Position numbers and translations under genes: made by a program | DNA from: Roseovarius sp. Pro17 | Lineage (GTDB): Bacteria > Pseudomonadota > Alphaproteobacteria > Rhodobacterales > Rhodobacteraceae | Length of the DNA: 64,000 nt | Reading direction: 5' to 3' | NCBI RefSeq assembly: GCF_035599575.1 | Contig: NZ_CP141179.1 | Span: 4,005,001-4,069,000 of the forward strand | Part shown: piece by piece, positions 35,734 to 54,831 of the stretch | How positions within the stretch are numbered: the first letter of the stretch is position 1 | How the letters are laid out: every line of letters begins with the position of its first letter | The notes under the pieces: generated by a model | Told to the model about the DNA's origin: nothing | Database searches by the model: none | The model's input: only the letters and a program-made list of their open reading frames with translations

Positions 35734-36720
35734 TGTAGATATGCCGTTACTCGCGAGACATTTCCTTTAGCCTCCCGGACCTGGGAAGAAGGAGATGTTT
35801 ATGTCGAAGGATCAACGCGAGATTAGGCGTAAGTTGCGGATACTGCGATACGCTGAAGAGACCGGCCATGTCGCCAAGACCTGTCGTTACTTTGGGATCG
35901 GCCGCGCCAGTTTCTACCGCTGGCGCAAGGCCTATGCCGAACGCGGAGAGGCTGGCCTGATCAATGCACCTCCCATCCCCAAGTGGCACGCCAACAGGAC
36001 ACCGCCTGAGCGCGAGGAAAAGGTGCTGCATCTTCGTCGCAAATACCACCTCGGGCCGATGCGGATCGTTTGGTATCTCGAGCGCTATCACGGCATTCGG
36101 ATGTCTGATGCCACGGTTTCACGCATCTTGCGTCGGCATGGCCTGAACCGGCTTCCTCGCGGAACCCGCATGCGTAAGGTCCATACCAAGCGTTATCAGA
36201 AACAAGTTCCGGGCCACCATATCCAGATGGACGTCAAGTTCCTGACTTTCATTGGGCAAAAGGGCGAAAAGATCCGCCGGTTCCAATACACAGCGATCGA
36301 TGACGCAACGCGGGTTCGAGCCCTGAAGGTCTATGAGAGACACACACAGGCCAATGCGATAGACTTCGTTGACCATGTCATCGACAAGTTCCCATTTCGC
36401 ATCCGGGAAATCAGGACCGACAACGGCCATGAGTTCCAGGCGAAGTTCCATTGGCACGTCGAGGATCTGGGAATCCGTCACGCTTACATCAAACGCGGCA
36501 CGCCCCAGCTCAATGGCAAAGTAGAGCGATCTCACCGCTCTGACGGGCAGGAGTTCTACCAGTTGCTTAGTTACAAAGGCGACGTGGATCTCGAAACCAA
36601 GCTGGGTGAATGGGAGCGCTTCTACAACTTCCACAGGCCGCATGGCGCGCACAATGGAAAGACACCTTACGAAGCTCTCAGAGAAAAGCTATAATCAACA
36701 GATTTCATGTCTCACGAGCA
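35734..36720 (+). mobile_element. IS481-type element, right end truncated
   Basis: The left terminal sequence TGTAGATATGCCGTTACTCG continues CGAGACAT (to 35761). Its inverse ATGTCTCACGAG is found at 36708-36719, but the outermost ~18 bp are missing there and IS3-like sequence begins. So the element is complete at the left and clipped at the right. Confidence 0.65.
35801..36694 (+). CDS. IS481-family transposase
   Basis: A 297-residue transposase: N-terminal HTH (GHVAKTCRYFGIGRASFYRW), second HTH-like part (MSDATVSRILRRHGLNRLP), and an rve-type DDE core with QMDVKFLTF (D), RTDNGHEFQ (D) and GKVERSHRSDGQEFY (E), ending in HRPHGAHNGKTPYEALREKL. AAGGAG lies 7 bases before the ATG at 35801. The gene is intact, although the element has probably lost its right end. 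Confidence 0.9.
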   Translation: MSKDQREIRRKLRILRYAEETGHVAKTCRYFGIGRASFYRWRKAYAERGEAGLINAPPIPKWHANRTPPEREEKVLHLRRKYHLGPMRIVWYLERYHGIRMSDATVSRILRRHGLNRLPRGTRMRKVHTKRYQKQVPGHHIQMDVKFLTFIGQKGEKIRRFQYTAIDDATRVRALKVYERHTQANAIDFVDHVIDKFPFRIREIRTDNGHEFQAKFHWHVEDLGIRHAYIKRGTPQLNGKVERSHRSDGQEFYQLLSYKGDVDLETKLGEWERFYNFHRPHGAHNGKTPYEALREKL

Positions 36721-38941: not shown

Positions 38942-40324
38942 TCACTGGCTCTTTGTCTGAATATGCCACACCGCATCGTGCGACGCCTGTCTGCGCGTCA
39001 TTCCATTCTGAAAGAATCGCTCGTAATACGCGTTGTCGATATGATGGGCCTGCAGCCAGATGCCTGGCGCCTGGATGGCTTCGCAGTGGGCGGGGAAGCG
39101 GCCGTGCGTGTCATGAATATACGTGCAGATCGCCCGTGCGCATTCGATGACTTCGCTGTCGTATTCAGCAGCCTCCGCCAAATAGCGATCGGCGAAATCT
39201 GCCTTGTAGATGCGCTTGAAAACCTCGCTGTCCTTGTAAACCCCGCCAGCGCCGAACTTACCGGCGATAACGGCATCAACTGCATCGGACATCGTGGGAT
39301 AGTTGGGCGGACACTTCGCCTTGATCAGATATTCGCCGTGATGGCGCAATCCGATAGCATGAGAACGGACATGTTTCATCGCCGTAATCGGCAGCGTGTG
39401 CCAACGCAAAAGGTCCATGAACTTCCACTTCGGCGACACATAATCGAAGCCCAGCATATTGCCATAGGCGTCCCGGAATTTCGGATCGCCCATAAGGACC
39501 GGTGGCGAAATAGAACCGTGAATCCAAGCGCCAAGCCCCATGGCCTCTGTCACTAGAAACAAATTCTGAACCAGCAGGTCAGCCTCTATCTGCGTTCGCA
39601 TCTGCTGAATGACGCCAAGCGGGACCTTGATGTCTTTATTCAAGAAGCCGCTCTTGATCCACTTCTTCACTCCCGCGGGTTGATAGAAATTGCGGTCATC
39701 GACGAAGACGGGCCGGGCGTTGCGGGGCTGCGTCAGAAGATACATTAACCCGTTGATATATTGATGCGACAGGTCGACCACCGGAAAGAAGATCGTGGTG
39801 CCGGGAAGGTTTGACAGGAACCTGTTGGAATCGAGGTATGCGGGAAAGTCGCGCATTTCCCCCGGCACGTCGATGCGTCGGTCGAGCACCCGCACCTTGG
39901 CTTCCTTGGCCCGTGCGATCAGTACATCGGGCGTCCAGCCGTCGATCCCGCCTTCAAGCGGTTTCAGGCGGCGCAGGAAATACGTGCCCTCGTCATTGAT
40001 CATGAAAAAATGCGTGCCCTGCGCGTTGTCGGGACTGCCGGCGGTACGTCCCTCCATCAGCAGATTGGGCTTTGCCATGATCTTCTCGCCGCTGTCGGGG
40101 TCGTTGAAAGGACGATCGGGCATGGTCAATCCCGTTGCGCCCGTCGCCGCGATCAGGATTGCCTCTTCGAGCGGTCCAAGCGGCTCGCGTTCTGCGTCCG
40201 ATGTATAGCTCATCGAACCCGCAGAAACCGAGCTTCCCCGGCTCACCCGCCGCGTGCGCCGGGTCCAGAGCGTTTCGGCCAGAGGCTCCTTCAGAAATGC
40301 GCTTAGTCCATCGTGATCTGCCAT
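38942..40324 (-). CDS. unknown protein, distantly nitroreductase-like
   Basis: A 460-residue protein with no signal peptide or TM span. The N-terminal part (WTRRTRRVSRG..., then PLGPLEEAILIAATGATGLT) and the helix LLVQNLFLVTEAMGLGAWIHG resemble FMN-dependent nitroreductase-fold proteins, but the similarity is weak and residues for FMN are not secure. The C-terminal 130 residues are rich in aromatic and His residues (IHDTHGRFPAHCEAIQAPGI, LQAHHIDNAYYERFF). GAGGAG precedes the start, 10 bp after the peroxidase stop, so it is the last gene of a three-gene unit with a fatty-acid-oxygenase-like protein. Confidence 0.6.
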   Translation of the reverse strand: MADHDGLSAFLKEPLAETLWTRRTRRVSRGSSVSAGSMSYTSDAEREPLGPLEEAILIAATGATGLTMPDRPFNDPDSGEKIMAKPNLLMEGRTAGSPDNAQGTHFFMINDEGTYFLRRLKPLEGGIDGWTPDVLIARAKEAKVRVLDRRIDVPGEMRDFPAYLDSNRFLSNLPGTTIFFPVVDLSHQYINGLMYLLTQPRNARPVFVDDRNFYQPAGVKKWIKSGFLNKDIKVPLGVIQQMRTQIEADLLVQNLFLVTEAMGLGAWIHGSISPPVLMGDPKFRDAYGNMLGFDYVSPKWKFMDLLRWHTLPITAMKHVRSHAIGLRHHGEYLIKAKCPPNYPTMSDAVDAVIAGKFGAGGVYKDSEVFKRIYKADFADRYLAEAAEYDSEVIECARAICTYIHDTHGRFPAHCEAIQAPGIWLQAHHIDNAYYERFFQNGMTRRQASHDAVWHIQTKSQ

Positions 40325-40334
40325 GGGGTTCTCC

Positions 40335-43151
40335 TCAATTCACTGGCCGCCACGGCGCGAAGGTAGACGCTGACGTCGGCAGGACCGCGCCCAGCTCGGG
40401 ACAATGGCGCAGCAGCACGGTCGTCATGGTGTTGTTCTCGACCCAGTCCATGCCCAGCGGTGAATAGATTTCAGGGCGGAAATCGGCGTTGAGGAACCGA
40501 TCGCTTTGCAGCCGCCGTGATGCCATCAGGATAAAGATGCGGAACGCTGTGTCGCTAAAGCCGAACCCGTCCGGGGGCGTCTCGCCCAGCAGACCGATCA
40601 CGGTGTCGACCTTGTCGACATGGCCATAGACATCCTTGAGGATGCGGTTGGTTTCCGGGCTCGCGGTCATGTCTTCAAACCGTGTGATCGGCGGCATGTG
40701 CAGACCCTTGCGAAACCCGTTGTAGCGGGGCACGTGGCGGGCGCGGGTGCGCACGATATCGACAACCGAAAGGTCGATCAGTTCGCCCGAGCGCTCCATG
40801 TTCTGCAACGCCTTCGGGAAATTGTGCAGCGTGATTGCGCCGGGATACGCGATACCAAGCGAATAAAGCGTGTTGCGCAGACCAAGCGCGCGCATTTTCT
40901 CGTCCGTTCTAGCACCCTGGATGCTGAGAAAATCGGTCCGTTCCGTTTCCGCCCCCGTCTCGTAGTTGTAAAAGACGTAGTCATCTGGGATCAGTGGGTG
41001 CATCCGGTAAACGGTCGCGAATTCCTCGGTCAGCGAATAGGGGGCAGAGTGGTGTATCGGGTAGGTCTTCGGGATCCCTTTCAGCGCATGCGTGTCCGTC
41101 AGCCACAGACCAAGGCGCGTGAACCAGGCATTGGACGGCGGGCCGTACCAATTGGTACTCATGCCGATCTCGAGCGCCTTGGTGCCGAGGATCGCGGGAG
41201 TCCATTCGATTGTGTGGATCTTGGCAATCAGCGCCGAAACGATCAGCCGCGCGGTCTGGTAGACCCGTTCCGGTGACCAAAGCGGGTAGGCGCGCTCCAG
41301 CTCTGCGCAAATGACGTTGTGTTCGCGTGCGAACAATGTGTGCATGGCCGACAGACCCAGCCACCAGCTTTCGTTGAATCCGGTCGCCTCGAAGCCATGC
41401 ACGTTCGTCGGCAAGTATCCCTCGCCGTCCAGCCGCAGGCGACTGCCCATCTCTCCCTTGCCGTTACTCTCGCGCAGCTTGTTGGCATTGGCCCGGTTCG
41501 TGCCGTAGACCTCCGAGCCATCCCACCAGTGTGACGTGTCGTTTGCCGCCAACCACACGTCCGACAATGACGGGTGGGGGATGTTTCCGGCAATCCGCAT
41601 GTCCCGTCCGGCGGTTGCGCCGGGTTCGTTCTTCCAATCCGGGTATCTGTCGGGGATCGTGACGCGCGTGTCGTTCTCGCCCAGCTTCTTGCGTGCGTGA
41701 CTGACCCAGTCATGGACCTGAAACTGTATCCATGCTGCCGCCAGAACATTGAGGCTTCGGGCAGGGATAAAGCTTTTTCGGTCCATCAGCTCGCGGGCAA
41801 CCAACACCGGGTTCGGATCGTCCTCGGGTTGGGGCTCGGGCGGCATGTTGCGGCCAAAGGTCGAACCGCGCGCGCCCATGGCCGTATCGGACATGTCGTT
41901 GAAATCTCCGGAATAACTTCGGAAACATAGGTTTTCGGCCGAGACGTTGCCCGGCACCGCGCGCGCTGCGGGTGGTGCCTCGCGGGGCTGCGTATCGATC
42001 AGGTTATGCTTGCGCAGATCGTGGCGCAGCGCATCGAGGTTCAGCAGGCTGATCAGATAGGGCAGCCGATGCCAGGGAACGCGCCGGTTTGCGCGCCTCA
42101 GAACGGCGCGGACCGAGCCGCCGATCAGCCGGTTGTGGACAGGAGCGGGCGGCTGTTTCCACCGCCTGCGCTGCCGATGCGCAAGTGATGCGTCATATGC
42201 CGCCTTGCGCGCCCGGTTCAGATTGCCAAGCGGTCGGAATTTCTCGGTCGTGTTCCAGGGATTGAACCCGGTATCCTCGATCCTGCGCCGCTCAGCGATT
42301 GCCTCGGCGTCGCTCAGATCGCGCTGTGGCAGGGTCAGGACCGCGACGCGAACCGGCGGGCTGTCGACATCGCGCCACTCGGTCGCCGCATCCTCGATTG
42401 GCGTCTTGGTTTCATCGACGAAACGCTGCACGCAAAGCTCGAACTGAACATCGTCCATTGCCAGTCGTGCGGCGAACTCCGCTTCCAACCTGCCCGGACC
42501 AGTGAATTCGCCCAATACTGAATTCGGGTTGATCGGTCGCAGAAAATACCGGACTGCTTCGTCGCCCCATCGTATTGCGCCACGGCTCCAATACGTCTCG
42601 AGCGCGAGGCTCTCGCAGATCCGCAATGCCGCGCGCAGATTGCGGATGATCCTAAGGGTTTCGGAGGGGCCGAAGACAAAGAACAGCCGCGCGATGCCAA
42701 GCCCGCGCGATAGCGTGCCGCCTGCAACCGCGTGGGCGAACGTCACGAACTGATAGGCATCGCGGGCGTGTGGAACGGCAAAATTCGTGGCCAGAAGATC
42801 GTGATGTTCGTCCTTCGACACGGCAACCCGCAGAGCGAGACCCCGCAGGTCCTTTTCGTCGTCGGATTTCAACGTGGATGCCGCGTTGGAAAAGCGGACC
42901 TCGACCGGATACTCGGCCCCCGGCCGGGCAAATCCCACCTGCAGATCCGGCGGCAGATCATCCACGATTCGAAGAGTTGCCCCACCAAAAGCAGCAATGG
43001 ACTTGGCGTGAAAGGCGCGATCGACCGCTTTCGCCCCAGCAGCTTTCTTGGATTTAAGCTGTGCCTCCAGCATCAATTCGGCAAGTTCACCAAAACTGAC
43101 GCGCTCGGCCTCGGGCGAGCCGCCCGCATATATTTCTTTCCACTTGGCCAC
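40335..43151 (-). CDS. fusion of a catalase-like domain and an alpha-dioxygenase-like haem peroxidase
   Basis: A 938-residue protein starting at GTG (MAKWKEI) after GAGGTGGAGAG. Residues about 15-330 are a catalase-family (Y4iL-like) domain: FHAKSIAAFGG with H48 in the catalase distal-His position, VRFSNAAS, DLRGLALRV and a PLGNLNRARKAAY end. Residues about 400-930 are an animal-peroxidase/PIOX-type domain: QFQVHDWVSH (distal H480), LFAREHNVICAELERAYP, and EEFATVYRMHPLIPDDY with Y715 and proximal H718, matching plant alpha-dioxygenases. The inferred chemistry is fatty-acid 2-hydroperoxidation by the C-terminal half and processing of the hydroperoxide by the catalase-like half, as in allene-oxide-synthase fusions. 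Confidence 0.82.
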   Translation of the reverse strand: MAKWKEIYAGGSPEAERVSFGELAELMLEAQLKSKKAAGAKAVDRAFHAKSIAAFGGATLRIVDDLPPDLQVGFARPGAEYPVEVRFSNAASTLKSDDEKDLRGLALRVAVSKDEHHDLLATNFAVPHARDAYQFVTFAHAVAGGTLSRGLGIARLFFVFGPSETLRIIRNLRAALRICESLALETYWSRGAIRWGDEAVRYFLRPINPNSVLGEFTGPGRLEAEFAARLAMDDVQFELCVQRFVDETKTPIEDAATEWRDVDSPPVRVAVLTLPQRDLSDAEAIAERRRIEDTGFNPWNTTEKFRPLGNLNRARKAAYDASLAHRQRRRWKQPPAPVHNRLIGGSVRAVLRRANRRVPWHRLPYLISLLNLDALRHDLRKHNLIDTQPREAPPAARAVPGNVSAENLCFRSYSGDFNDMSDTAMGARGSTFGRNMPPEPQPEDDPNPVLVARELMDRKSFIPARSLNVLAAAWIQFQVHDWVSHARKKLGENDTRVTIPDRYPDWKNEPGATAGRDMRIAGNIPHPSLSDVWLAANDTSHWWDGSEVYGTNRANANKLRESNGKGEMGSRLRLDGEGYLPTNVHGFEATGFNESWWLGLSAMHTLFAREHNVICAELERAYPLWSPERVYQTARLIVSALIAKIHTIEWTPAILGTKALEIGMSTNWYGPPSNAWFTRLGLWLTDTHALKGIPKTYPIHHSAPYSLTEEFATVYRMHPLIPDDYVFYNYETGAETERTDFLSIQGARTDEKMRALGLRNTLYSLGIAYPGAITLHNFPKALQNMERSGELIDLSVVDIVRTRARHVPRYNGFRKGLHMPPITRFEDMTASPETNRILKDVYGHVDKVDTVIGLLGETPPDGFGFSDTAFRIFILMASRRLQSDRFLNADFRPEIYSPLGMDWVENNTMTTVLLRHCPELGAVLPTSASTFAPWRPVN

Positions 43152-43191
43152 GAACTCTCCACCTCGCTCGTTACAATGCTATGACAAGTGA

Positions 43192-44922
43192 TCAGACTCC
43201 GACGCGTTTGCGTATTCCTTCCCAAATTGCCGACAAAACGCCCTCGGGATCGGGGCTGTAATGAGGCAGGGCGAGCCGGGTAATCCGCGCGTCGATGAGT
43301 GTTGGGCGACCTGATACCAACGCCGCTTTGAATGCTGGTTCAAATTCATCCAACCGGTCGACGGTAAATCCGCCAGCCCCGCATGCGCGCGCGTATGCGG
43401 CATAGTCCGGGTTGTCGAATTCGACCAATCCCGTCTTCAGGAATGCCGACAGTTGATAAAGCTTTATCAGTTTGAATTCCGCGTCGTTGAAAATGACCCA
43501 AATGACCGGGATGTCGTACTGAACCGCCGTCATCAATTCAAAACCGGTCATCAGGTAGGAGCCGTCGCCTACGGCTGCGACCACCGGGCGATCCATCTCG
43601 CCGAACTTGACGCCCATCGCACCGCACACCCCTATCCCCATCGGGCCGTAAGTGCCGGGCTTGCGGAAATTTTGGCCGTCTTTGAGTTCAATATAATAAC
43701 CTGTCCAGGCCGCATGCGCGCCAGCGTCGGTCAGCACGACACCGCGTTCGGGCAGGTTGCGCGAAATCGCCTGCACCATCTCGCCCGGATGCAGCTTCTT
43801 CTGCGGCGCGATGATAAACCGTTCGTCGTAATCCTTGGGCCGATAGTCCTTTGCGGGAATAGGCCCGATTTTCGCATCCATACTTTCGTGCAGGGCCGTG
43901 AATGATAATCTTGCATCGCCGATAATCGCGTGATCGACGCGGTAAACCTTGTCGATTTCGCCGGGGTCGATGTTGATGTGCACAAGTTTCTTGTCCACGA
44001 AAAGCTCGTCATCGAAATCGAATGTGGCATGCTGGGCAAAGGAATTGCCCACCGCGATGACGATGTCGGCCTTGTTGAACAGATCCCACGCTGCCTTGTG
44101 CCCGGAATCGCAGAACAGGCCGATGGCCAGCGGGTGTTCCTCGGCCACGATGCCTTTGCCATCCATCGTCGTCAGAAGCGGGATTTGAAATCGTTCGATG
44201 AAAGCGCGGGTTTCAACATAAGCCTGACTACGGATTGCCCCGAAACCCGACAGAACAACCACGCGCTTACCCGCGTTGATCGCATTGGCCAAGTCCACCG
44301 CCGCAGCCTCGATGCGGGCGGGATCGGGCGCCGACGGGTCCGAATGGACCGTGATCGGGCGATAATTGGTGATCTCGATCTTTGGGTCGGTGATGTCTTC
44401 GGCAATTGCGATGTGTACCGGACCGGGCCGCCCTTCGAACGCCACGCGCAGCGCCTTTTCCAGCGTCCCGATGACATCGTCCGGATCGGTCACAAGATAG
44501 TTTGCGGGCCTGCCCGTCGCCGAATCTTTCTTGCAGACCGCGTCAAAGATCATCGACGAATCCGGTGTCCGCGCCAGCCCCGAGGTTTCATTCAACCCGC
44601 CGCGCCCCGTCCACGCCACCGTCGAATAGCCGCTGATTGCCAAGAGCGGATAGGAGTCCGTCAACGCGACCGACATCCCGGAAATCAGGTTGAACGCGCC
44701 CGGTCCCGCAGTTGCGAAACACACACCCAGCTTGTCCGTGAACATTGCATAGCCGCAGGCCATGAACGACGCGCCTTGTTCGTTCTTGGCAATCACCGGC
44801 CGGATCTTGTCCGAGGCGTCAAGCGCCAGCATCAGACCTGCCGCGTTTTCCCCCGCACCTCCGAAGGCGGCATCCACGCCGAGCGACTCGAGGGCGGCAA
44901 CAATTGCTTCATATGTTCGCAT
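43192..44922 (-). CDS. ThDP-dependent enzyme (acetolactate synthase/2-hydroxyacyl-CoA lyase-like)
   Basis: A 576-residue three-domain ThDP enzyme: pyrimidine domain with catalytic Glu in KNEQGASFMACGYAM (E48), central Rossmann-like domain (KRVVVLSGFGAIRSQA, IVIAVGNSFAQH), and the PP domain with GDGSYLMTGFELMTAVQ and NDAEFKLIKLYQ. Residues do not distinguish acetolactate synthase, oxalyl-CoA or 2-hydroxyacyl-CoA lyase. Being first gene of a unit with an alpha-dioxygenase-like protein, a lyase acting on 2-hydroxy acids (alpha-oxidation) is an attractive inference. A CGGCGC/GCGCCG hairpin lies at 44954-44969 in its 5' region. Confidence 0.8.
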   Translation of the reverse strand: MRTYEAIVAALESLGVDAAFGGAGENAAGLMLALDASDKIRPVIAKNEQGASFMACGYAMFTDKLGVCFATAGPGAFNLISGMSVALTDSYPLLAISGYSTVAWTGRGGLNETSGLARTPDSSMIFDAVCKKDSATGRPANYLVTDPDDVIGTLEKALRVAFEGRPGPVHIAIAEDITDPKIEITNYRPITVHSDPSAPDPARIEAAAVDLANAINAGKRVVVLSGFGAIRSQAYVETRAFIERFQIPLLTTMDGKGIVAEEHPLAIGLFCDSGHKAAWDLFNKADIVIAVGNSFAQHATFDFDDELFVDKKLVHINIDPGEIDKVYRVDHAIIGDARLSFTALHESMDAKIGPIPAKDYRPKDYDERFIIAPQKKLHPGEMVQAISRNLPERGVVLTDAGAHAAWTGYYIELKDGQNFRKPGTYGPMGIGVCGAMGVKFGEMDRPVVAAVGDGSYLMTGFELMTAVQYDIPVIWVIFNDAEFKLIKLYQLSAFLKTGLVEFDNPDYAAYARACGAGGFTVDRLDEFEPAFKAALVSGRPTLIDARITRLALPHYSPDPEGVLSAIWEGIRKRVGV

Positions 44923-45161: not shown

Positions 45162-45415
45162 ATGGACGACCAGAACAGCTCGACATCTGGCGATAGTACG
45201 AAGCGCTTTTCTGCGAAGCGAAAGCTTGCGGCGGTTCAGCGGCTGGTGCGCGGGCAGAGCCTGGAAGCGGTGTCGCGGAACCTGAACGTCCCGTTTCATC
45301 AGGTGTCGGAGTGGCGTGACAAGGTCTTGCTGGGGGCGGAGAGCGCGCTGAGGGAGCGCGGGCGTGACGCGCGTGATGACGAGATCGCGCGGCTGCAGGC
45401 CAAGGTGGCCGAGTA
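45162..45415 (+). pseudogene. IS3-type OrfA fragment
   Basis: The HTH part of a transposase accessory protein: KRKLAAVQRLVRGQSLEAVS, NLNVPFHQVSEWRDKVLLGA and RDDEIARLQAKVAE. After about 45415 the frame runs into sequence antisense to the next gene's end and stops at 45509. The leucine-zipper end and OrfB are missing. Confidence 0.7.
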
Positions 45416-45458
45416 TTGTTCCGCCGTTCACACCCCCTTGAGGCGCAGCTTTACCTTG

Positions 45459-48400
45459 TCAGATTATGATATCAGCGATGAGCGCACGTCTTGTGTCCGC
45501 AAGCCTTGATTTCACTAGTTCGCGGACATCGTTGTAGATCGCGGGGCTTAGCGTCATTTGCTGGGCTGACAGCCAGTAATCGAGCTCGTTCTTGCCCCAC
45601 GATACGAAGAGGATATTCTGCTTTTTGTCCGAATGGTTAAAGTTGAAAGCGCCGATGGCCATGCTAATCACATCGCCGGTTGCTTCGGCACTACCGATCT
45701 GAAAATTGCCGCCTGTGGTGCTGGATGTCTCGAGGTCGAACAATCGAATCTTGCCGTCATCCGCAGTCAACCCGCGCAGAGCTTTGATCGCGCTTTCTAT
45801 GATCTTGAATTGATTGCCCGTTGCGACCTGAGCCAGGGTGGTCAGGATAACTTTGTCAAAGCTGCCCTTGGCCTGCATCTTCTGGGACGCCTCAAAAGGC
45901 GTGTTTTCACGAATCCAGCCAAGGGACGACAGCACGTTCGAGTAGATATCAAACCAGTTCGCCCGCTCGCCAATCGGGTCCGCCTTGGCGTCTGCCGCTC
46001 GTTGGGCGAACAAGGTGGACAGCAGCACGTCTTCCTTTTGGCCCGGTGTCAGGTTTTCCACGAAGGAAATGACGCTGGAGGCGCTGACTGCGGCCTTCAA
46101 GCTTTGTTGATGGGCCGCGACCTGGGATGTGGGGTCGAACGGGTCGCCAGCGCGTGTCGATGCTGTCGCAAAGGACGAGGACACAGTCGCGCTGCGTGGA
46201 AGGCCACCCCGCGGCGCGGCGAGTTCTGTTGAGTTGATGATCGCCAGACGCTCTGTCAGATCACGTGGGGCGCGGTCCAGAAGTGGTGAGTTGGACGGGC
46301 CGCCTGAATTTGCAAAGGCCTTGGGCCAGGTCGTGCTGTGTCCGCGTGTGTCGACATGGGTAAAGCCGTTGTAGCGCCCGACACCACCCTGAAAGAAGCC
46401 TTCTTTATCGCGCAACCAACGCAACGCCTGCGCCACGTCAGGGGCCGCCATGCCGCACACTTGGAAATCCAACGCGTTGAAATTCAGGTGCTGGCTGCCG
46501 GTCGCACCGCCAATACACGCATTGTAAGCTGGCGCGCGATAGGAGTTGGTAATGGCAATCGGCTTGCTCAAGCGGTCCCTGAGGTGGTCGAGCACCTGAG
46601 CGGTCTTGGCGATATTCGTCCAAAGCCCGCGCGGGGGGTAAGTGTTCTTGCCTGCACAGGCGCTACCCGGGCTACTGTGGCCACCGCCGAGGACCAGGAA
46701 TTCGTCGGTGGCGAAGTTTTTTAAGCCGAGGGATTTGATGAACGCGTCGAAATCTGCGTAGTCAGACCAATGCGCCGCTGCGGATGATCGCATGCCCGCA
46801 CCGCGCGATTTAGCTTCGAAAATCCGCGAGACCTCTGCGTCAGGCAGTGGGTCGTCTTCATCCCCTTCGCCTTCATCAATCTGAGGAGAACTGGACGGTC
46901 TGACGGGCGGCGCGGCTGTGCCGACGCTTGCAACGTTGTGCAGATAAGGTTGCAGGGTGAAGGGCCGCTCCTTTACGAATTCCGGCTCCCGCACCAGTAC
47001 TTCAAAGAGCTGCGGGGTTTGCGACGGGCTGTCGATCCGCGCCTCGATGGCGGCGCGAAAAGCCCGATAGCCGCCGTTGAATCGCCCGTTGTCCCACACA
47101 TCCAGAAGTGCGCCGGTGAACGCACCGTTTTGCGCCCCGTCCATAGCGAATTGATCGTCCTTACAGGCCCCGAGGTTGAGAACTGACGCCTGGATGGGCG
47201 ATGACAATGGCGCAGTCATCACGCTTTCCTTGAGGGCGCTGTATGACTTGGAGGCCGTGCGATAGGCGGCCTCGTTGGCGCGCCAGACGCGGTCTTCCAC
47301 ATAGTGCGGCATGGCGCGGGTGGCCGGGCCCGTTTGAATCTCGCGGCCCCATAATTGGATCGGCATCGGGGCGCTGCCCATCCGCGCCATAGACCCCGAG
47401 TGGCAGGTGTCGGGTACGATCAGGACGCGCACGCCCGCCCGGAACTCGGTCCAGAGCATGTAAAGTTCGTCATCGGCAATCTGGAAGTCATAAAGACACA
47501 GAGTCTCGTCCATCTTGATGTCGCCGTCATGGTCCTCGTCCTGATTGAAGTCCGGCAGGCGACCGCCGTGGGCGGAGACACTGAACAGGAACATATCGCC
47601 AGCGTTTAGATCGCGCGCCGCCTTTTGAATGTGCTCCACGACGTTTTGTCGCGTGGCGTCCTGCGTCAGCAGCAGGTCTGGCGCAAGCCCTTCGCCACTG
47701 GCAAGTGCCAGCATGGAATGGGCGTCCGCCTCGCAGGCGGTCAGCTTGCCGTCCCAGCCATCATAATGCCCGGGGTCGACCGCGTTCAGACCCACGTGTA
47801 GCGACATGCCTTTGGGCATGCCGCCGGCAATGACGGCGGGCGATTGCATGGCGCGCGAAAGCTCGGACGCGGAACCGAACGGGCCGCTGATGATCGGCCG
47901 CGGACCGCTGCGCGCATTGGCGATCCTGGCAATTTCACGAGCAAATTTGCGCGCGACATCCGCGTAACCCGCGTTGTTGGGGTGCAGGCCATCGTGCCAG
48001 CGATCATCACCAACCACCGTGCGGCAATCGATATAGGTCACGTTCGGCATGGCCTTGGCCGCACGCCGCAGCCTGCGATTGAACTGGTCCATCATGCAGC
48101 GCGCAATAGCCTTTTGCAGCGACTTGTCGCGGATCCCGCGAGATTCCATCGGTTTGCCCAGCCAGCGGTCCTTGTTGGGAACCGGATAGTCATAGCCGTG
48201 ACACAAAATGTTGACGTGCGGAAAATGTTGATGCACCTGGCGAAACATCCGGCTGTAATGCGTAAGCGCATCATCCAGCAACGCCTGAAACGACGGCAGA
48301 AGATAGTCCTCGGGCGCAAAATCGGGGTCGAACTCTTCAAGGTGGGGCGCCAGTGCGCCGCCTGCGACCAGATCATTGCCGCCACCCGACAACAGCAAAA

Positions 48401-48845
48401 TCTCGGCGCCGGTGTCACGCAGGGCACGAAGGTACTCCTTCTTGTCTGCCATATTCTTCAGCAAATCGCCCGCTGCCCCAAGCGAGTAGATCGCGTAGGG
48501 GTTCATCAGATAGTCGATCGTATCTATCAAAAGGATCGGATACTGGAACCAGCTATCGCCTTCCGAGACAATGAGCGGGCCGTCATAACCAGCTGCGATT
48601 TTCCGTTGGTAAAGAGCCTTGCGGTTCCAGCGCGCCATCCAGTTGGCGGAATTCATCGCCATCGCAGAGCGTTCGGCGGCACCTGCACCGCGCGGAATCT
48701 GCACAGTTGCCGGATTGAACTTGAGGCGCGGGGAGAAGGGCCCGGAATTTTCGACGTCGACGATGAAGTACTTGGCCAATGCGTCGTCTTCGGCACCAAG
48801 GTTGGACATCTTCGACATCAGCTGTTCAACAGTAATTTTCGACAT
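45459..48845 (-). CDS. three-hydrolase protein: SGNH hydrolase, caspase-like protease, M15 peptidase
   Basis: A 1,128-residue protein with no visible signal peptide or TM span. ATG at 48845 follows AAGGAG. Residues about 90-310 form an SGNH/GDSL hydrolase: SEGDSW (Ser98), the Gly of SLGAAGD, GGGND (Asn157) and HDGLHPN (Asp285, His288). Residues about 345-620 form a caspase/metacaspase fold: SLHVGLNAVDP, SVSAHGG (His426) and VPDTCHSGS (Cys481). Residues about 710-845 form a peptidase M15A-type domain: GSQHLNFNALDF (His786, Asp793) and GFTHVDTRG (His830). Residues about 925-1128 are a further domain of unknown function (GNFQIGSAEATGDVISMAIG, FVSWGKNELDYWLSAQQ). All three catalytic sets look complete. 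It lies 25 bp after a papain-like gene, evidently the same operon. Confidence 0.85.
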   Translation of the reverse strand: MSKITVEQLMSKMSNLGAEDDALAKYFIVDVENSGPFSPRLKFNPATVQIPRGAGAAERSAMAMNSANWMARWNRKALYQRKIAAGYDGPLIVSEGDSWFQYPILLIDTIDYLMNPYAIYSLGAAGDLLKNMADKKEYLRALRDTGAEILLLSGGGNDLVAGGALAPHLEEFDPDFAPEDYLLPSFQALLDDALTHYSRMFRQVHQHFPHVNILCHGYDYPVPNKDRWLGKPMESRGIRDKSLQKAIARCMMDQFNRRLRRAAKAMPNVTYIDCRTVVGDDRWHDGLHPNNAGYADVARKFAREIARIANARSGPRPIISGPFGSASELSRAMQSPAVIAGGMPKGMSLHVGLNAVDPGHYDGWDGKLTACEADAHSMLALASGEGLAPDLLLTQDATRQNVVEHIQKAARDLNAGDMFLFSVSAHGGRLPDFNQDEDHDGDIKMDETLCLYDFQIADDELYMLWTEFRAGVRVLIVPDTCHSGSMARMGSAPMPIQLWGREIQTGPATRAMPHYVEDRVWRANEAAYRTASKSYSALKESVMTAPLSSPIQASVLNLGACKDDQFAMDGAQNGAFTGALLDVWDNGRFNGGYRAFRAAIEARIDSPSQTPQLFEVLVREPEFVKERPFTLQPYLHNVASVGTAAPPVRPSSSPQIDEGEGDEDDPLPDAEVSRIFEAKSRGAGMRSSAAAHWSDYADFDAFIKSLGLKNFATDEFLVLGGGHSSPGSACAGKNTYPPRGLWTNIAKTAQVLDHLRDRLSKPIAITNSYRAPAYNACIGGATGSQHLNFNALDFQVCGMAAPDVAQALRWLRDKEGFFQGGVGRYNGFTHVDTRGHSTTWPKAFANSGGPSNSPLLDRAPRDLTERLAIINSTELAAPRGGLPRSATVSSSFATASTRAGDPFDPTSQVAAHQQSLKAAVSASSVISFVENLTPGQKEDVLLSTLFAQRAADAKADPIGERANWFDIYSNVLSSLGWIRENTPFEASQKMQAKGSFDKVILTTLAQVATGNQFKIIESAIKALRGLTADDGKIRLFDLETSSTTGGNFQIGSAEATGDVISMAIGAFNFNHSDKKQNILFVSWGKNELDYWLSAQQMTLSPAIYNDVRELVKSRLADTRRALIADIII

Positions 48846-48870: not shown

Positions 48871-51087
48871 TTACTGGTTTTCTCGATGGCGTCTGATCGT
48901 CTCGAAGATATCAGAGGTGATGGTTTGGTCGTCGGCTAATTCCACCTGTGAAACGCGGTCGTTCTCGCGCCGGGGCATTGAAATTTCGTTCAGCTGAAAC
49001 AAGGCGCCGCGCGCGCTGAATTTTGGGTCATCGGCAATTTTCGCCATCCCCAGAAACGGCCGGGCCGCGCTGAATATCGGCACATCGTTGTCTTTGGAAC
49101 TGGACGATGCGAGGTAGCGATCTTCAAAGGCGCGCGACACAAGATGGATTATGGATTTCCCGTAAATTCCGAAATGCACCCTGCCTTCCAGACCGTGATC
49201 CGGGATATAGATGCGGGCGCGTGGATCGGCGTTGCTATCTATGACCGGGCTTACTTTCGGCTTCCTTGAAGTGCTTTTGCGGCGTGTCCTGCCCTCAATG
49301 GGCCCGTTCATTTTTTCGATGAACGGAATCAGTAATTTTTCGGCGCGCGGCATTCCGATGGCGGGGTGGATCAGGTGAACCGTGTCGAACAAATCCTTCG
49401 AGCGCCAGTTTCCAACTGCGCTATGGGCGCGATCCCGGGCCTTGGAATCCTCGTCCAGCGCGGCAAGAATCTCATGGACCATCAGGACCCCGGCGCCTTC
49501 GGCAACAATGTGAATCTCGCAACCCGTGTCTTGTCTGAGCTTGATCAGATCAACAAGGCAAAGCTTGGCAAAGCCCTGTTTGATGCGCTGCAGCTTGTCG
49601 AGTTCGGCAGGCTCGAACGGCAATTCCCCACTGCCACGTATCGCCCGCCGCGCGCCCATTTCGATGTCCCGCCAGAAGGCGCGCCCGACCCCGCGCACGC
49701 GGTTTTCGATCAGGTCGTCAAGGTGGGTTGCATGCTCGCCCGCCTGCGCCTGGCAACTGTCGAAAAGCCCCTGAAGAACCTCCATGGATTTCTCGACGAA
49801 GTTGTTGCACCAGAAAATCGAATAGGGATACAGATCCAGACCCTTGATGAGGGCCTTGCGCTGGACGGCGGCCTCGAAGGCCTTCTTCGTCCCTTCCAGG
49901 CTGCCCGGAATCCAGACCAGAACGCCCTTGTAGGATCCGGCTTTTTCCTCTGGGCTTGCCTTGGGGTCAAATTGCTTTTCCAGATATTGGCGGGTCCGGG
50001 TCCAGCCGTCCGAAAACGACGGATAGGACCCGGTCGAGACCTGAAACCCGTCATCGAGATGCATGTAATGGCCGACGAGTTCCGAGCATGGCGTCGAGCC
50101 TGTCTGGATCTTGCCATGTATGCCCTTGATCCCCTTCTCGCCAACAGATGCACCGAAAGCAGTCGGCGCATAGACAGCCAGCCGCAGTATCCAGCTGTCG
50201 ACCACATTCTGCGCCCAATCGGCATAAGACCACAGGGCGATGCCTGCCAGTCCATTGTAGCCGCCCCATTTCGGACCCCATGAGTTCAGGACATGAAAAC
50301 CCTTTTCGTCATACCCGGTCAACACGAACGCATGCGTCCCGGTGACGCCTTGTTTGGGTGGCCATGTGATCTCACCGCCCTGCTCTGGGTTGGGATCGGC
50401 CCAGCCATCATGAATGTTGGCGGTCGTCAGGATCGCTTCGGCATCGTTCAGGGCCGCATGAAAATGGTTGAGAACCGAAGCCAACCGAAAATAGGCGCCC
50501 AAGCCCACATTGCGGGCTGCTTTGGCCTGATCAACGGTCGGAAACAGCCGTGAGCCGTCTTTGCTGGTCTGGTTGTAAGAGCTGCTTTGCCAACGATCTG
50601 GTTCAATCGCGTCCTCGCACAGTGGCCAGTCCATGCAAACGCCGTGGTGATAAAACCCTTTGATTGCCGAGCGCAGCGTACGCACGCCCTCGATAGACTG
50701 GGTTTCCTGGTCTTCCAGATCAGGGTAACGGTCGTGAAAAAATGCCATCCGGTACAGCATATCTGCGCTAACGATATCCGGCAGGAATGGTTTGGTCCCG
50801 TCAAACGTGGCGGCAGAGGTTTTTCCGGCGCGCCGTAACCACTGTAAATTGCGCTGGATGTCGATCAAATTTGCAAGGGCAAAGCCAACGCAACGTCCGC
50901 TCTGACCTTGGTTTCGGACACCAAATATAGGCATGTGCAGATTGGTTTCGGGATCAAGCGAAACCAGTTTCGGATCGATCGTTACGACATCCCGCAGCAC
51001 TGACAGATTCGGAATATAGTTTTGATCGCGCAAATCGATCCAATCTGCACGAACAGAGCCTTTTTTTATGAATTTTTCAAAGTCCAT
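48871..51087 (-). CDS. papain-like (C1) cysteine protease with C-terminal alpha/beta-hydrolase-like region
   Basis: A 738-residue protein from the ATG at 51087 (MDFEKFIKK); a GTG 12 bases upstream is possible, and neither has a clear ribosome site. The C1 protease spans about 30-300: GVRNQGQSGRCVGFALANL (Cys66), GVTGTHAFVLTGY (His252) and HVLNSWGPKWGG (Asn268). There is no propeptide of usual length or signal peptide. From about 390 the order VLVWIPGS, CEIHIVAEGAGVLMVHEIL, LFDTVHLIHPAIG suggests an alpha/beta-hydrolase fold in which the nucleophile Ser of G-x-S-x-G is replaced (AEGAG), so it may bind rather than cleave. First gene of a two-gene unit with the SGNH-caspase-M15 protein. Confidence 0.83.
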   Translation of the reverse strand: MDFEKFIKKGSVRADWIDLRDQNYIPNLSVLRDVVTIDPKLVSLDPETNLHMPIFGVRNQGQSGRCVGFALANLIDIQRNLQWLRRAGKTSAATFDGTKPFLPDIVSADMLYRMAFFHDRYPDLEDQETQSIEGVRTLRSAIKGFYHHGVCMDWPLCEDAIEPDRWQSSSYNQTSKDGSRLFPTVDQAKAARNVGLGAYFRLASVLNHFHAALNDAEAILTTANIHDGWADPNPEQGGEITWPPKQGVTGTHAFVLTGYDEKGFHVLNSWGPKWGGYNGLAGIALWSYADWAQNVVDSWILRLAVYAPTAFGASVGEKGIKGIHGKIQTGSTPCSELVGHYMHLDDGFQVSTGSYPSFSDGWTRTRQYLEKQFDPKASPEEKAGSYKGVLVWIPGSLEGTKKAFEAAVQRKALIKGLDLYPYSIFWCNNFVEKSMEVLQGLFDSCQAQAGEHATHLDDLIENRVRGVGRAFWRDIEMGARRAIRGSGELPFEPAELDKLQRIKQGFAKLCLVDLIKLRQDTGCEIHIVAEGAGVLMVHEILAALDEDSKARDRAHSAVGNWRSKDLFDTVHLIHPAIGMPRAEKLLIPFIEKMNGPIEGRTRRKSTSRKPKVSPVIDSNADPRARIYIPDHGLEGRVHFGIYGKSIIHLVSRAFEDRYLASSSSKDNDVPIFSAARPFLGMAKIADDPKFSARGALFQLNEISMPRRENDRVSQVELADDQTITSDIFETIRRHRENQ

Positions 51088-51786: not shown

Positions 51787-53766
51787 ATGCCCGATGGTCT
51801 AGCCCTCTTTATAGGGGCTGCCATTATAGCGTTTTTCTCTTACGACCGCTTTGATAGAGTGACCCATCAAGGCGGTCGACAGCTTGAGCGCGTGGTAAGC
51901 CTGTTGTCGCCCAATAAGATGCGCGCGCGGCGTGTTGTATTGCGCGCGTATGTCTTTTATGCACTCGCGCTTCTTATAATCTACCTGTTTATGTGTGCCT
52001 ATGCCGAGCTTTTGCCGCTTGTCGGCGGGCCTGCCCTGAATGGCGAGGCTATGGGAGCAAGCGGAATTCCCGTTGCGGGCGTCGACGTGACGTCTCAGCT
52101 GACAACCGGGTTCAATCCGTCGGACACGCCGGGGGATCAACAAATCTCGGACGTGGCTATTCCCGAGGCGCAAGGCAAGCGCCTGGGCATCGATCCGGCT
52201 GTTTCCTTGACCGTGGCCCTGATCATCGTCGGGCTTGCCCCCAGTTTTCCGGCCCTGCAAAGGGTCGAGAACTGGATCCGTCTGACCGCGCATAGGTTGG
52301 CCGGCATTCCCACCTGGGTCATAGGTGCCAGCGAGGATCTCAGCCGCAATGCCTTGGGCATACTGCCTTTGGACGAAAACAAGATGCCCACCGATCTGCT
52401 ACTGATCCCTCAGGGGTCCTGGGAGAGGATGATGCAGTATCAGATCGGCGCCAAGGGCAAGCTGACCGCGCCGGATGAGTTTCACCACGATCTTGAGATC
52501 ATCTTCGCCAGCGCGTCCTGGATTCTGGACCGCAAGCTCAAGCTTGCCAATTCCAGTGGGCGCCGGGATTTCGATGCGCTGGAAAACAACCTGCGACAGC
52601 GCATCGCGTCATTGATTCAAGATCTAGATGAAAAGACGGGCTACCGCCCGGGCCACATCACGCCGTTTGCAGTAGCGAAAGACTCGGAGGGCGCAGAAGG
52701 CCTCGGCGGCGTGCGAAAAGACGATGACGGTCCCATCGAATTGCTGCGTGAAAGCTGGGACCGGCTAGCTGGCGAAACCGCCGATCTTGCCAACGACCTC
52801 CACATCCTTCTGGCGCTTTATGTAGAGCACGAGATCATCACGACCCAAGAGATGACTCCAGCCGCCAAAGCCGGGCAGAAAGACATCGCACGCCAGCGCG
52901 TCCTCGCCCGTAAGAAGCTTCAGGATTTTCTGGGATCGATGCTTGCTGATCGGACCGCGTCCGGTCGGCTTCCGCTCTCGACCATGACCGTCTGGTTCTG
53001 GACTATGGCGGTTGTGCTCGTCGTCGCGCTGCTCTGGAGCATGTTGCCCGGCAGACTTGAAACCGCGCTGCAGTTCGGAAATCCGGGCAGCGGCTATTCC
53101 CGCGCGACAACCTATATTCTGGGCGCTTTCAATCAGTATTGCATCCCGATGCTTGTGGCGCTGATGATCCGTGACGGCGCCCTGCAATCTGAGCGATGGA
53201 ACAATATCTGGGCGTCACACTGGACGACGGGTTTGCCCCAGGCCGCAGTCGTCATATCCGTCTCTTGGGCCGTGGCCGCATTGATCATCATAGGCCTGGG
53301 TCTTTGGCAGTCCGCGCTCGATCAAAGCTGGGAAGCCAATTCCGAGCGCGTGTGGAAAACTCTGCGGGCCACCTTCGAGTACAATGCGCCGTCCGCCTTC
53401 CGAGGCGCTATTCTGGCCTGGATCGCGCTGTGTCTTCTTGATTGGCCTGCATCGAATGACGACGATCGGATGGCGTCGAGCTTTCGTTGGGCCACATGGT
53501 CAGCGGCAATCATGGCAGTTTGCGGTATGATTACCCGCTATGCAATGTCGCTGGCCGCTCTGGCCCGCAGCTCGCGACCCAAGCTGGACGAGATTGATTA
53601 TGGACTCATCTCATACGCAGCTATTCTCGCGGCTATCATCGGCTTTGTCGTGATCTTCTGCCTCGCTGAGGCGATCAGAAGCGCACGCGTCGGTTCTGAC
53701 TTGCGTAACCCGACACGCTTGCGATCCAAAGCGAGTGCCGACACTGCACCTACGGCGGGGGAATGA
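51787..53766 (+). CDS. multi-TM membrane protein of unknown function
   Basis: A 659-residue protein with about nine TM segments: 4-18, 52-74, 137-157, then a soluble part of some 240 residues (about 160-398), and 400-420, 441-461, 484-507, 537-553, 567-588 and 606-629. The soluble part contains no motif that I recognise; LLRESWDRLAGETADLANDL suggests a helical bundle. It is followed 4 bp later by a periplasmic binding-protein-like gene, so it may be the membrane partner of that protein. No ABC or kinase motifs are seen. Confidence 0.7.
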   Translation: MPDGLALFIGAAIIAFFSYDRFDRVTHQGGRQLERVVSLLSPNKMRARRVVLRAYVFYALALLIIYLFMCAYAELLPLVGGPALNGEAMGASGIPVAGVDVTSQLTTGFNPSDTPGDQQISDVAIPEAQGKRLGIDPAVSLTVALIIVGLAPSFPALQRVENWIRLTAHRLAGIPTWVIGASEDLSRNALGILPLDENKMPTDLLLIPQGSWERMMQYQIGAKGKLTAPDEFHHDLEIIFASASWILDRKLKLANSSGRRDFDALENNLRQRIASLIQDLDEKTGYRPGHITPFAVAKDSEGAEGLGGVRKDDDGPIELLRESWDRLAGETADLANDLHILLALYVEHEIITTQEMTPAAKAGQKDIARQRVLARKKLQDFLGSMLADRTASGRLPLSTMTVWFWTMAVVLVVALLWSMLPGRLETALQFGNPGSGYSRATTYILGAFNQYCIPMLVALMIRDGALQSERWNNIWASHWTTGLPQAAVVISVSWAVAALIIIGLGLWQSALDQSWEANSERVWKTLRATFEYNAPSAFRGAILAWIALCLLDWPASNDDDRMASSFRWATWSAAIMAVCGMITRYAMSLAALARSSRPKLDEIDYGLISYAAILAAIIGFVVIFCLAEAIRSARVGSDLRNPTRLRSKASADTAPTAGE

Positions 53767-53769
53767 AAT

Positions 53770-54831
53770 ATGAGGATGATGTTTCTCATCTGGTCGATCA
53801 TTCTGGTGCTGCCGACCGGACTGTCCGCGCAGACAGCCCAAGTCGGGGAAAGGTCGACGGTCATGATCGGCGCACGCATCGATGGTCGCCCCTTTATCTG
53901 GCAAGACGCGGTGACAAAAGAATATCTGGGTTTCTTCTGGGACATCTGCACCGATGCTGTCACCCGCGCGGGCTACAAGTTCGAAGCGCAGCAGATCGAC
54001 GCCGCCACGCGCAAGCAGTTCCTGGAGACCGGGGAAGGGATTTTCGACCTGCTTTGCGATCCCACGACCATCACGCTGAGCCGGATAAAGGAGTTCATCG
54101 ATCTGAATAATGGAAAACGCCTGCGGTTTTCACCCATCGTTTTTGTGGCAAACGGGTCCTACGTCTTGTCGGCCCAGCACCCGTCAACGGCGGGTGGCTT
54201 TGGCCAATTCGATGAGCGGATCGTCGGCTGCGCCGAGGCGATCGCGGGAGAGAAAAAGTCGACCGCACCCGAGCCCCCGGAAGAGTCCGGCTTTCTTCAG
54301 AGGCTGGCCAGCAGGATTCCCATCCAGATGTTGCCGCCGGACAACGCTCCGGCCTCCGTGGAAAACAAATACGAAATATGGGGATATGTCGACGGTACGA
54401 CCAGCAAGGGCATCGTTGACAGGGCGATCAAACGGTCTGCCGACCAAGTCACGATCTGTCCCAGGCCCTTAGCTACGCACGCGGAGGCGGCAAGGGAGTT
54501 CTGCGCCGGGCGGCTTGCCCGTTATTACGGTGACGTCGAGATCGTCCGGGCCGCCATCGAAGAGGTCCCTGCAACTGGCGGCACCAAATGCGAGGCCGAT
54601 TTCAAGCCAACGGCAGGGGGCAGTTATGAGCCTTATGCCTTCGTAGTGTCGGGCAGCAGATTCCGGACGTTGCCCGAAGAGTTTGACCACGCGCTTTACG
54701 GGATGTTCAGTGATGGCTCGATCGACCGGCTCTTCGACGGGCACTTCCCGGATAAAAGAAAATCGCAATTCCTGAACACCCTGTTCCGCATCAACAGTCT
54801 GCCCCCCGGAACGCCGCAGGAGCAACCTTAA
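53770..54831 (+). CDS. periplasmic solute-binding-like protein (family 3 type)
   Basis: A 353-residue protein with an N-terminal signal peptide (MRMMFLIWSIILVLPTGLSA, cleavage near residue 20). The mature part has the pattern of amino-acid-type binding proteins: RPFIWQDAVTKEYLGFFWDI (ligand-entry region), FDLLCDPTTITLSRIKEF (hinge strand) and, after about 110, SPIVFVANGSYVL. The C-terminal lobe ends with a FDHALYGMFSDGSIDRLFDG helix as in SBP_bac_3 domains. No ABC permease or ATPase is nearby, so it may act as a sensor for the preceding membrane protein rather than in uptake. Confidence 0.7.
   Translation: MRMMFLIWSIILVLPTGLSAQTAQVGERSTVMIGARIDGRPFIWQDAVTKEYLGFFWDICTDAVTRAGYKFEAQQIDAATRKQFLETGEGIFDLLCDPTTITLSRIKEFIDLNNGKRLRFSPIVFVANGSYVLSAQHPSTAGGFGQFDERIVGCAEAIAGEKKSTAPEPPEESGFLQRLASRIPIQMLPPDNAPASVENKYEIWGYVDGTTSKGIVDRAIKRSADQVTICPRPLATHAEAAREFCAGRLARYYGDVEIVRAAIEEVPATGGTKCEADFKPTAGGSYEPYAFVVSGSRFRTLPEEFDHALYGMFSDGSIDRLFDGHFPDKRKSQFLNTLFRINSLPPGTPQEQP

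Follow-up and report, generated by a model that had tools for sequence, protein, structure and literature searches.

A Roseovarius protein joining SGNH hydrolase, metacaspase and M15 peptidase domains to a predicted Cyt-like fold, and its papain-type partner: a candidate lysis device

Introduction

Bacterial gasdermins are pore-forming effectors that kill the cell and are cleaved by caspase-like proteases encoded next to them; the protease, caspase-like or trypsin-like, arms the effector with which it is encoded (PMC9079055). In Canu and the trypsin-nuclease pairs, a caspase or trypsin is paired with a latent effector (PMC12799240). EACC1-caspase System 4 and trypsin/NucA System 3 combine a constant protease with swappable effectors and proposed auto-proteolysis, and the parts of these systems include trypsin, NucA, S8, papain and lysozyme (Kaur 2020, PMC7159879). 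A protein of Chitinophaga pinensis containing a GDSL lipase, an Amidase_2 domain and a metacaspase was called 'a highly destructive weapon' by its authors (Asplund-Samuelsson 2012, PMC3501461). The present analysis concerns a gene of the marine bacterium Roseovarius sp. Pro17, located in a stretch of 64,000 nucleotides (hereafter the window; contig NZ_CP141179.1, positions 4,005,001 to 4,069,000), whose product joins SGNH hydrolase, metacaspase and M15 peptidase domains to a predicted Cyt-like fold. It is referred to as the caspase gene, and the papain-type gene preceding it as the partner gene.

Like the C. pinensis protein, the caspase protein holds lipase, wall hydrolase and metacaspase in one polypeptide, with M15 in the place of Amidase_2; a papain partner, a Cyt-like domain and the domain order are not mentioned in the section that describes the former (PMC3501461). 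The likeness to the gasdermin systems lies in a protease encoded with a putative pore former and in its possible proteolytic arming; however, the predicted pore domain has a Cyt fold, stands in the caspase's own chain and is accompanied by wall and lipid hydrolases. This predicted fold is shared by the Cyt delta-endotoxins, volvatoxin A2 and Evf. The effectors differ from those of Canu in being a peptidase and a putative cytolysin, and neither an SGNH module nor a papain partner is mentioned for Canu in the text consulted (PMC12799240), whereas the SGNH-trypsin-EEP and trypsin-Endonuclease_NS-SGNH fusions of the present family parallel the Canu and trypsin-nuclease pairs. In contrast to the systems of Kaur 2020, SGNH is constant here, and a search of the text of PMC7159879 for SGNH, GDSL and lipase gave no occurrence. 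The caspase protein scored 20.1 bits against the caspase_w_EACC1 model (cut-off 140), outside the EACC1-caspases, and the gene on its 5' side is the papain partner, where the EACC1 system has the EACC1 gene. As for an N-terminal effector-associated domain, none of seven N-terminal segments matched Pfam above cut-off, Pfam containing at least one of that domain series (TCAD7).

A literature search, which did not cover bioRxiv preprints, retrieved no paper whose title or abstract describes this architecture. The literature searched nowhere describes a caspase with a Cyt-fold domain in cis, and the rest is a variant of known systems. The first-pass annotation, made by a model from the DNA letters, had stated that it knew of no described protein with this order; the exact order is indeed absent from the literature searched, but a polypeptide with GDSL lipase, amidase and metacaspase was reported in 2012 (PMC3501461).

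Results

Domain architecture of the caspase protein

Three complete hydrolase sites had been proposed within one frame of roughly 1,130 residues. The frame comprises 1128 codons with an ATG start at position 48845 and contains all the named residues, and Pfam-A matches above the curated cut-offs were obtained for SGNH (residues 83-295), caspase C14 (PF00656; 359-604; 51.4 bits against a cut-off of 21.4) and M15_3 (PF08291; 745-832; 68.8 bits against 23.2). The SGNH segment shows the Ser, Gly/Asn and Asp-x-x-His blocks and the fold of its family, and a caspase fold was predicted for the metacaspase segment.

Homologue searches covered proteins of 0.55-1.75 times the query length, about 8000 candidates being scored in each, and 154 homologues of the caspase protein were found at E<=1e-3. 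The architecture counts hold for the homologues listed; of the 120 listed for the caspase protein, 92 contain PF00656 and PF08291 together (counted by hand). The SGNH and caspase residues given in Table 1, together with D479, are identical in 121/121 sequences (the query and 120 listed homologues), and the M15 ligands (zinc, His/Asp/His) are invariant in 93/93 sequences having the domain. The frame is conserved across homologues and is no chance frame. Phage matches of the M15 domain include annotated endolysins, and the protein did not qualify as a MepK L,D-endopeptidase by NF053624 (21.7 bits against a cut-off of 185). No recognisable signal peptide or transmembrane segment was found in the caspase protein or the papain partner, neither of which contains a 19-residue hydrophobic window above 1.6 (maxima 1.14 and 1.51).

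The 3' end of the caspase gene is overlapped by a transposase-type helix-turn-helix open reading frame (ORF); despite this overlap, the C-terminus still aligns with relatives to its end.

Table 1. Positions of the domains, partner gene and other features in the window
Feature	Position	Strand	Remarks
Caspase gene	45459..48845	(-)	1128 aa: N-module, SGNH hydrolase, metacaspase, M15 peptidase, predicted Cyt-like domain
Conserved N-terminal module, residues 1-82, ahead of SGNH	48600..48845	(-)	no Pfam match
SGNH (GDSL-2) hydrolase, residues 83-310	47916..48599	(-)	Ser98/Asn157/Asp285/His288
Metacaspase-like C14 domain, residues 341-636	46938..47825	(-)	His426/Cys481, DTCHSGS
M15_3 peptidase, residues 739-840	46326..46631	(-)	His786/Asp793/His830
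Variable linker, residues 843-904	46134..46319	(-)	conserved R866 and R898; possible processing region
Predicted Cyt/volvatoxin/Evf-type cytolysin fold, residues 895-1128	45462..46163	(-)	predicted structure
Partner gene, 738 aa: papain-type (C1) protease and alpha/beta-hydrolase-like domain	48871..51087	(-)	25 bases upstream of caspase gene
Partner papain-type domain, residues 54-310	50158..50928	(-)	Gln60/Cys66/His252/Asn268 invariant in 24 aligned rows
Partner alpha/beta-hydrolase-like domain, residues 388-660	49108..49926	(-)	motif
Transposase-type helix-turn-helix ORF (PF01527)	45162..45509	(+)	overlaps 3' end of caspase gene
TPP-dependent enzyme gene	43192..44922	(-)	
Animal haem peroxidase with catalase-like stretch	40335..43151	(-)	938 aa
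460-aa protein gene	38942..40324	(-)	no assigned family
IS-type transposase with integrase core	35795..36694	(+)	

Predicted cytolysin fold and its relatives

The C-terminal domain of about 200 residues, left unassigned in the first-pass annotation, is here assigned as Cyt-like, residues 895-1128 being predicted to adopt the Cyt/volvatoxin/Evf cytolysin fold. By sequence, no match to known members was obtained with the profile against PDB sequences or in a Pfam scan of 18 members. Six single-member Pfam matches at 0.03-0.25 were set aside, as were armadillo-repeat PDB chains (down to 2.7e-6), which involve one helix (profile positions 85-129) and many weak repeats and were regarded as compositional. 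No gasdermin-fold effector occurred among the matches listed for the domain. Bt Cyt toxins act after proteolytic maturation, and the Cyt/Evf fold contains a cavity that binds lipid (PMC5390079).

Scans with the Cyt profile, own genome counted, gave 3/149, 7/398 and 1/385 genomes, the best 7 candidates per genome being scored in the last two. Stand-alone relatives were seen in two of the 148 family genomes besides the own, and in five genomes of one other genus among the 398. At one locus (L079), four genes on the same strand encode a CHAT-nSTAND1 protein, a CHAT protein (TCAD7 below cut-off), a Lipase_3-S8 protein and, last, the Cyt-like protein. CHAT proteases are caspase-like, and among the gene contexts it is this row, with CHAT proteases, an NTPase and a lipase ahead of a Cyt-like gene, that speaks most strongly for a role as executioner. 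At another locus (L089, 7572-9979), adjoining ORFs of 223, 268 and 231 aa were observed, two of which match the Cyt-like profile and the third of which is similar by eye.

Linkers and conserved basic residues

Low-confidence stretches of the predicted structure were located at residues 483-505 (after the catalytic Cys), 633-661 (the caspase-M15 gap) and near 883-886, and residues 895-903 were also of low confidence in a separate domain model. The mean frequency of the top residue was 0.55 over 483-512 and 0.47 over 846-908 (40 rows). Nevertheless, position 488 is Arg or Lys and position 510 is Arg in 121/121 sequences, and Arg occupies position 866 in 68 of the 74 sequences with a letter there and position 898 in 62 of 65. 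Metacaspases have Arg/Lys specificity, cleaving after Arg or Lys, and are activated by calcium. Since basic residues are kept in these stretches, self-processing that would free the Cyt-like domain by autocleavage at the kept arginines is plausible.

Papain-type partner gene

The partner family adjoins the caspase gene in the same order in 21/21 loci (20 genome loci and the window), among them that of Roseovarius sp. MMSF_3359 (L003), and one same-genus genome (G411) carries both genes. The pair is also present in Litoreibacter arenae. Natural fusions of the two proteins account for 10 of the 120 listed homologues. A 24-member partner profile matched PDB 3ois (2.7e-26), an entry deposited under the name cysteine protease, and gave weaker matches to papains and cathepsins; on this basis, the N-terminal domain is probably a papain-type protease. 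The second domain looks like an alpha/beta hydrolase, judging from its motif and one weak sub-cut-off Pfam match in one relative. Its elbow reads H-S-A-G in most distant members and E-G-A-G in the window gene, so the presumed nucleophile appears to be lost there.

Modular family and distribution

The own genome contains a paralogous operon (L025, C1:853500-873000) encoding a regulator-like protein, whose Pfam matches stay below cut-off, a PAP2-type enzyme, a subtilase, a protein of 257 aa judged membrane-bound by eye, a haem peroxidase of animal type, a papain partner and an SGNH-caspase without M15. In its segment 2783-5921, the PAP2-type enzyme and subtilase genes precede the peroxidase-papain-caspase genes, and the called gene ends overlap.

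The SGNH part yielded 908 homologues, and the sources of the 120 listed include Roseovarius, Sulfitobacter, Rhodohalobacter, Rhodopirellula, Arenicella and a myxococcal bin. In other genomes, SGNH is fused to trypsin (L040, where the SGNH part was identified by blastp only), to trypsin and an EEP nuclease (L044), to subtilase (P0258) and to M10 (P0335); in P0318 it comes last, after trypsin and Endonuclease_NS, and in L038 and L039 the module stands alone beside the papain partner. At locus L045 (537-9848), an SGNH-trypsin-EEP gene is followed on one strand by genes for a DUF6603 protein and a protein of 929 aa that matches no family. Distant partner relatives were found in 14/398 phylum genomes, some with an N-terminal GH19 (L066; L065 below cut-off) or N-acetylmuramidase (L069) domain, and L072 and L074 combine Amidase_2, a hydrolase-like part and a caspase without papain.

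Matching plasmid records numbered 91, mostly from Sinorhizobium and Rhizobium; none covers 80% of the query, and a shorter SGNH-caspase form is found on rhizobial plasmids. Among three rhizobial records, the first has a C1 peptidase directly upstream, preceded by a gene of the TIGR02594 family, which we take to be wall-active. The second has trypsin-like and YEATS-associated genes upstream and a C1 peptidase three genes off on the opposite strand, and the third has chitosanase and murein L,D-transpeptidase genes downstream, SIR2 and AAA genes upstream and no C1 peptidase in the stretch. Taken together, wall hydrolases, proteases and nucleases interchange around a recurrent core, and pairing becomes looser beyond the Rhodobacterales form. 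The first-pass annotation did not place the trio in this family of exchangeable modules. The distribution is sparse: the SGNH module of P0118 occurs in 6/385 class genomes at 1e-40, and the full-length form in 2/60 relatives, own genome counted.

Gene neighbourhood, secretion and defence context

No third gene family is common to all 21 loci. A multi-pass membrane protein of about 350-366 aa is encoded directly downstream in 12 of them (e.g. L002, 13393-14493). In L001, a gene for a Tle1-like phospholipase is located upstream with the same orientation. The haem peroxidase was rejected as a fixed part, since An_peroxidase occurs anywhere in only 4/16 carriers, and is accessory. The two An_peroxidase matches of the own genome lie near its two caspase loci.

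The type VI secretion system (T6SS) sheath gene PF05591 is absent in 15 of the 17 carriers searched (L005, L010, L015, L017 and L019 lying outside this set, and completeness being given for two of the 17), including the own genome, which is 99.9% complete; it is present in 34/149 family genomes. T6SS dependence was therefore rejected, and T6SS is not the general route.

PADLOC was run on 93 neighbours, comprising 85 of the 150 listed neighbours from 13 loci and 8 window genes, with a single copy of the common downstream membrane protein; L008, L010-L014, L016 and L070, whose contexts resemble loci kept, and a few short ORFs lay outside the set. The hits were scattered single families (best mad3 2e-29, PycC 2e-29 and mad8 9e-11) rather than a recurrent island, and a defence island was rejected. 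The caspase gene reached only the generic caspase model, and the anti-phage defence signal of the neighbours is weak and scattered.

Discussion

The two genes may encode one proteolysis-armed lysis device, the likeliest use of which is self-killing under attack or stress, either as abortive infection or as developmental lysis; we favour this reading tentatively. The product would be held inactive in the cytoplasm until a trigger switches on the metacaspase, possibly together with the papain partner. Cleavage after arginines in the variable stretches would free the Cyt-like domain, which could open the inner membrane in a holin-like manner; this breach would give the M15 peptidase access to the wall, while the SGNH domain would deacylate envelope lipids, and the cell would lyse. 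The holin-endolysin logic would here be reproduced within one chain. Wall-hydrolase domains recurring with the same components (GH19, muramidase and Amidase_2, together with the genes near rhizobial members) were counted for a lysis device. The invariant catalytic residues, the predicted Cyt fold, the basic residues kept in variable stretches, the constant and at times fused partner, the Cyt-like gene at the end of the CHAT row, the absence of hydrophobic segments, the scarcity of the T6SS sheath gene among carriers and the precedent of the gasdermins were counted likewise. The first-pass annotation had pictured a self-contained envelope effector; three intact hydrolases, an endolysin-matching M15 domain and a predicted cytolysin fold agree with it, but the protein belongs to a pair whose other member is a papain-type protease.

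Several observations weigh against this lysis device. The Cyt domain is missing from 47/121 homologues and M15 from 28/120, so neither is needed for the core. Fold likeness alone does not demonstrate pore formation, and the action of Evf is unclear. No protease was seen beside the stand-alone Cyt-like genes of the other genus (L088-L090), which weakens the Cyt-protease link, and the pairing is loose in the rhizobial records, a C1 peptidase lying directly upstream in only one of the three. In the linkers, Glu663, Asp665, Trp693, Leu875 and Ser890 are likewise kept in at least 90% of 40 rows, and R866 lies inside a predicted short helix. None of the genes in the Rhodobacterales operons could be recognised as a sensor, the PADLOC hits are scattered, and neighbour families are mostly those of transport and metabolism (the 25 commonest of 97 families shown).

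The last observation would suit a degradative or remodelling complex that turns over cell wall or biopolymers; caspase and papain would serve as its processing proteases, and the Cyt-like fold would use its lipid-binding cavity (PMC5390079) without forming pores; however, a caspase, a cytolysin fold and a wall peptidase are an unusual set for housekeeping and the distribution is sparse, and we regard this explanation as improbable. An exported or lysis-released weapon against competitors, predators or hosts, leaving without a leader by vesicles, a contractile device or explosive lysis, deserves more attention, although it too seems somewhat unlikely. The likely targets of lipase, protease, wall peptidase and cytolysin are all envelope components, the Cyt and Evf relatives act as toxins or virulence factors (PMC5390079), and the Tle1-like phospholipase of L001 and the haem peroxidase and subtilase of the paralogous operon fit such a use; the downstream multi-pass membrane protein could be an immunity or export protein. 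On the other hand, neither protein has a recognisable export signal, the T6SS sheath gene is missing from most carriers, and a third gene common to the loci is lacking.

An anti-phage abortive-infection system of gasdermin or Canu type, triggered by a phage product, is in our judgement unlikely, even though a swappable series of proteins carries a caspase or trypsin in cis with the effector and trypsin- and caspase-activated pro-nucleases act in defence (PMC12799240). The shorter SGNH-caspase on rhizobial plasmids lies once near SIR2 and AAA genes and once beside a YEATS-associated gene, and a few neighbours match PADLOC models well, but these are single families, the caspase gene itself reaches a generic model, and no sensor domain was recognised. 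Because the defence context is thin, self-lysis is ranked first and anti-phage activity is not claimed.

A more specific form of the lysis device, put forward with greater reserve, would be a gasdermin-independent bacterial 'pyroptosis', in which the metacaspase releases the Cyt-fold pore former that stands in the same chain and is coupled to an endolysin-type peptidase. A single polypeptide would then serve as initiator protease, holin and endolysin. It would represent one branch of a large, unnamed family whose SGNH module and papain/hydrolase partner are used with proteases, nucleases and wall hydrolases that can replace one another. If true, caspase-driven lytic death would exist in bacteria independently of gasdermins, and the fold of insecticidal and mushroom cytolysins would serve as the pore in the same chain as a protease and a wall peptidase. 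Widespread proteins annotated singly as 'caspase family', 'C1 family peptidase' or 'trypsin-like' would also be explained, and the gene pair would be one where protease, pore and wall cutting are separately switchable.

Other features of the window

Three genes, for the 460-aa protein, the haem peroxidase and the TPP-dependent enzyme, are tightly spaced on the minus strand (38942-44922), and an IS-type transposase gene is also present (Table 1). Of a divergent pair (51787-54831, plus strand), one gene encodes a 659-aa protein that has several hydrophobic stretches and matches no family, and the other a solute-binding-protein-like product.

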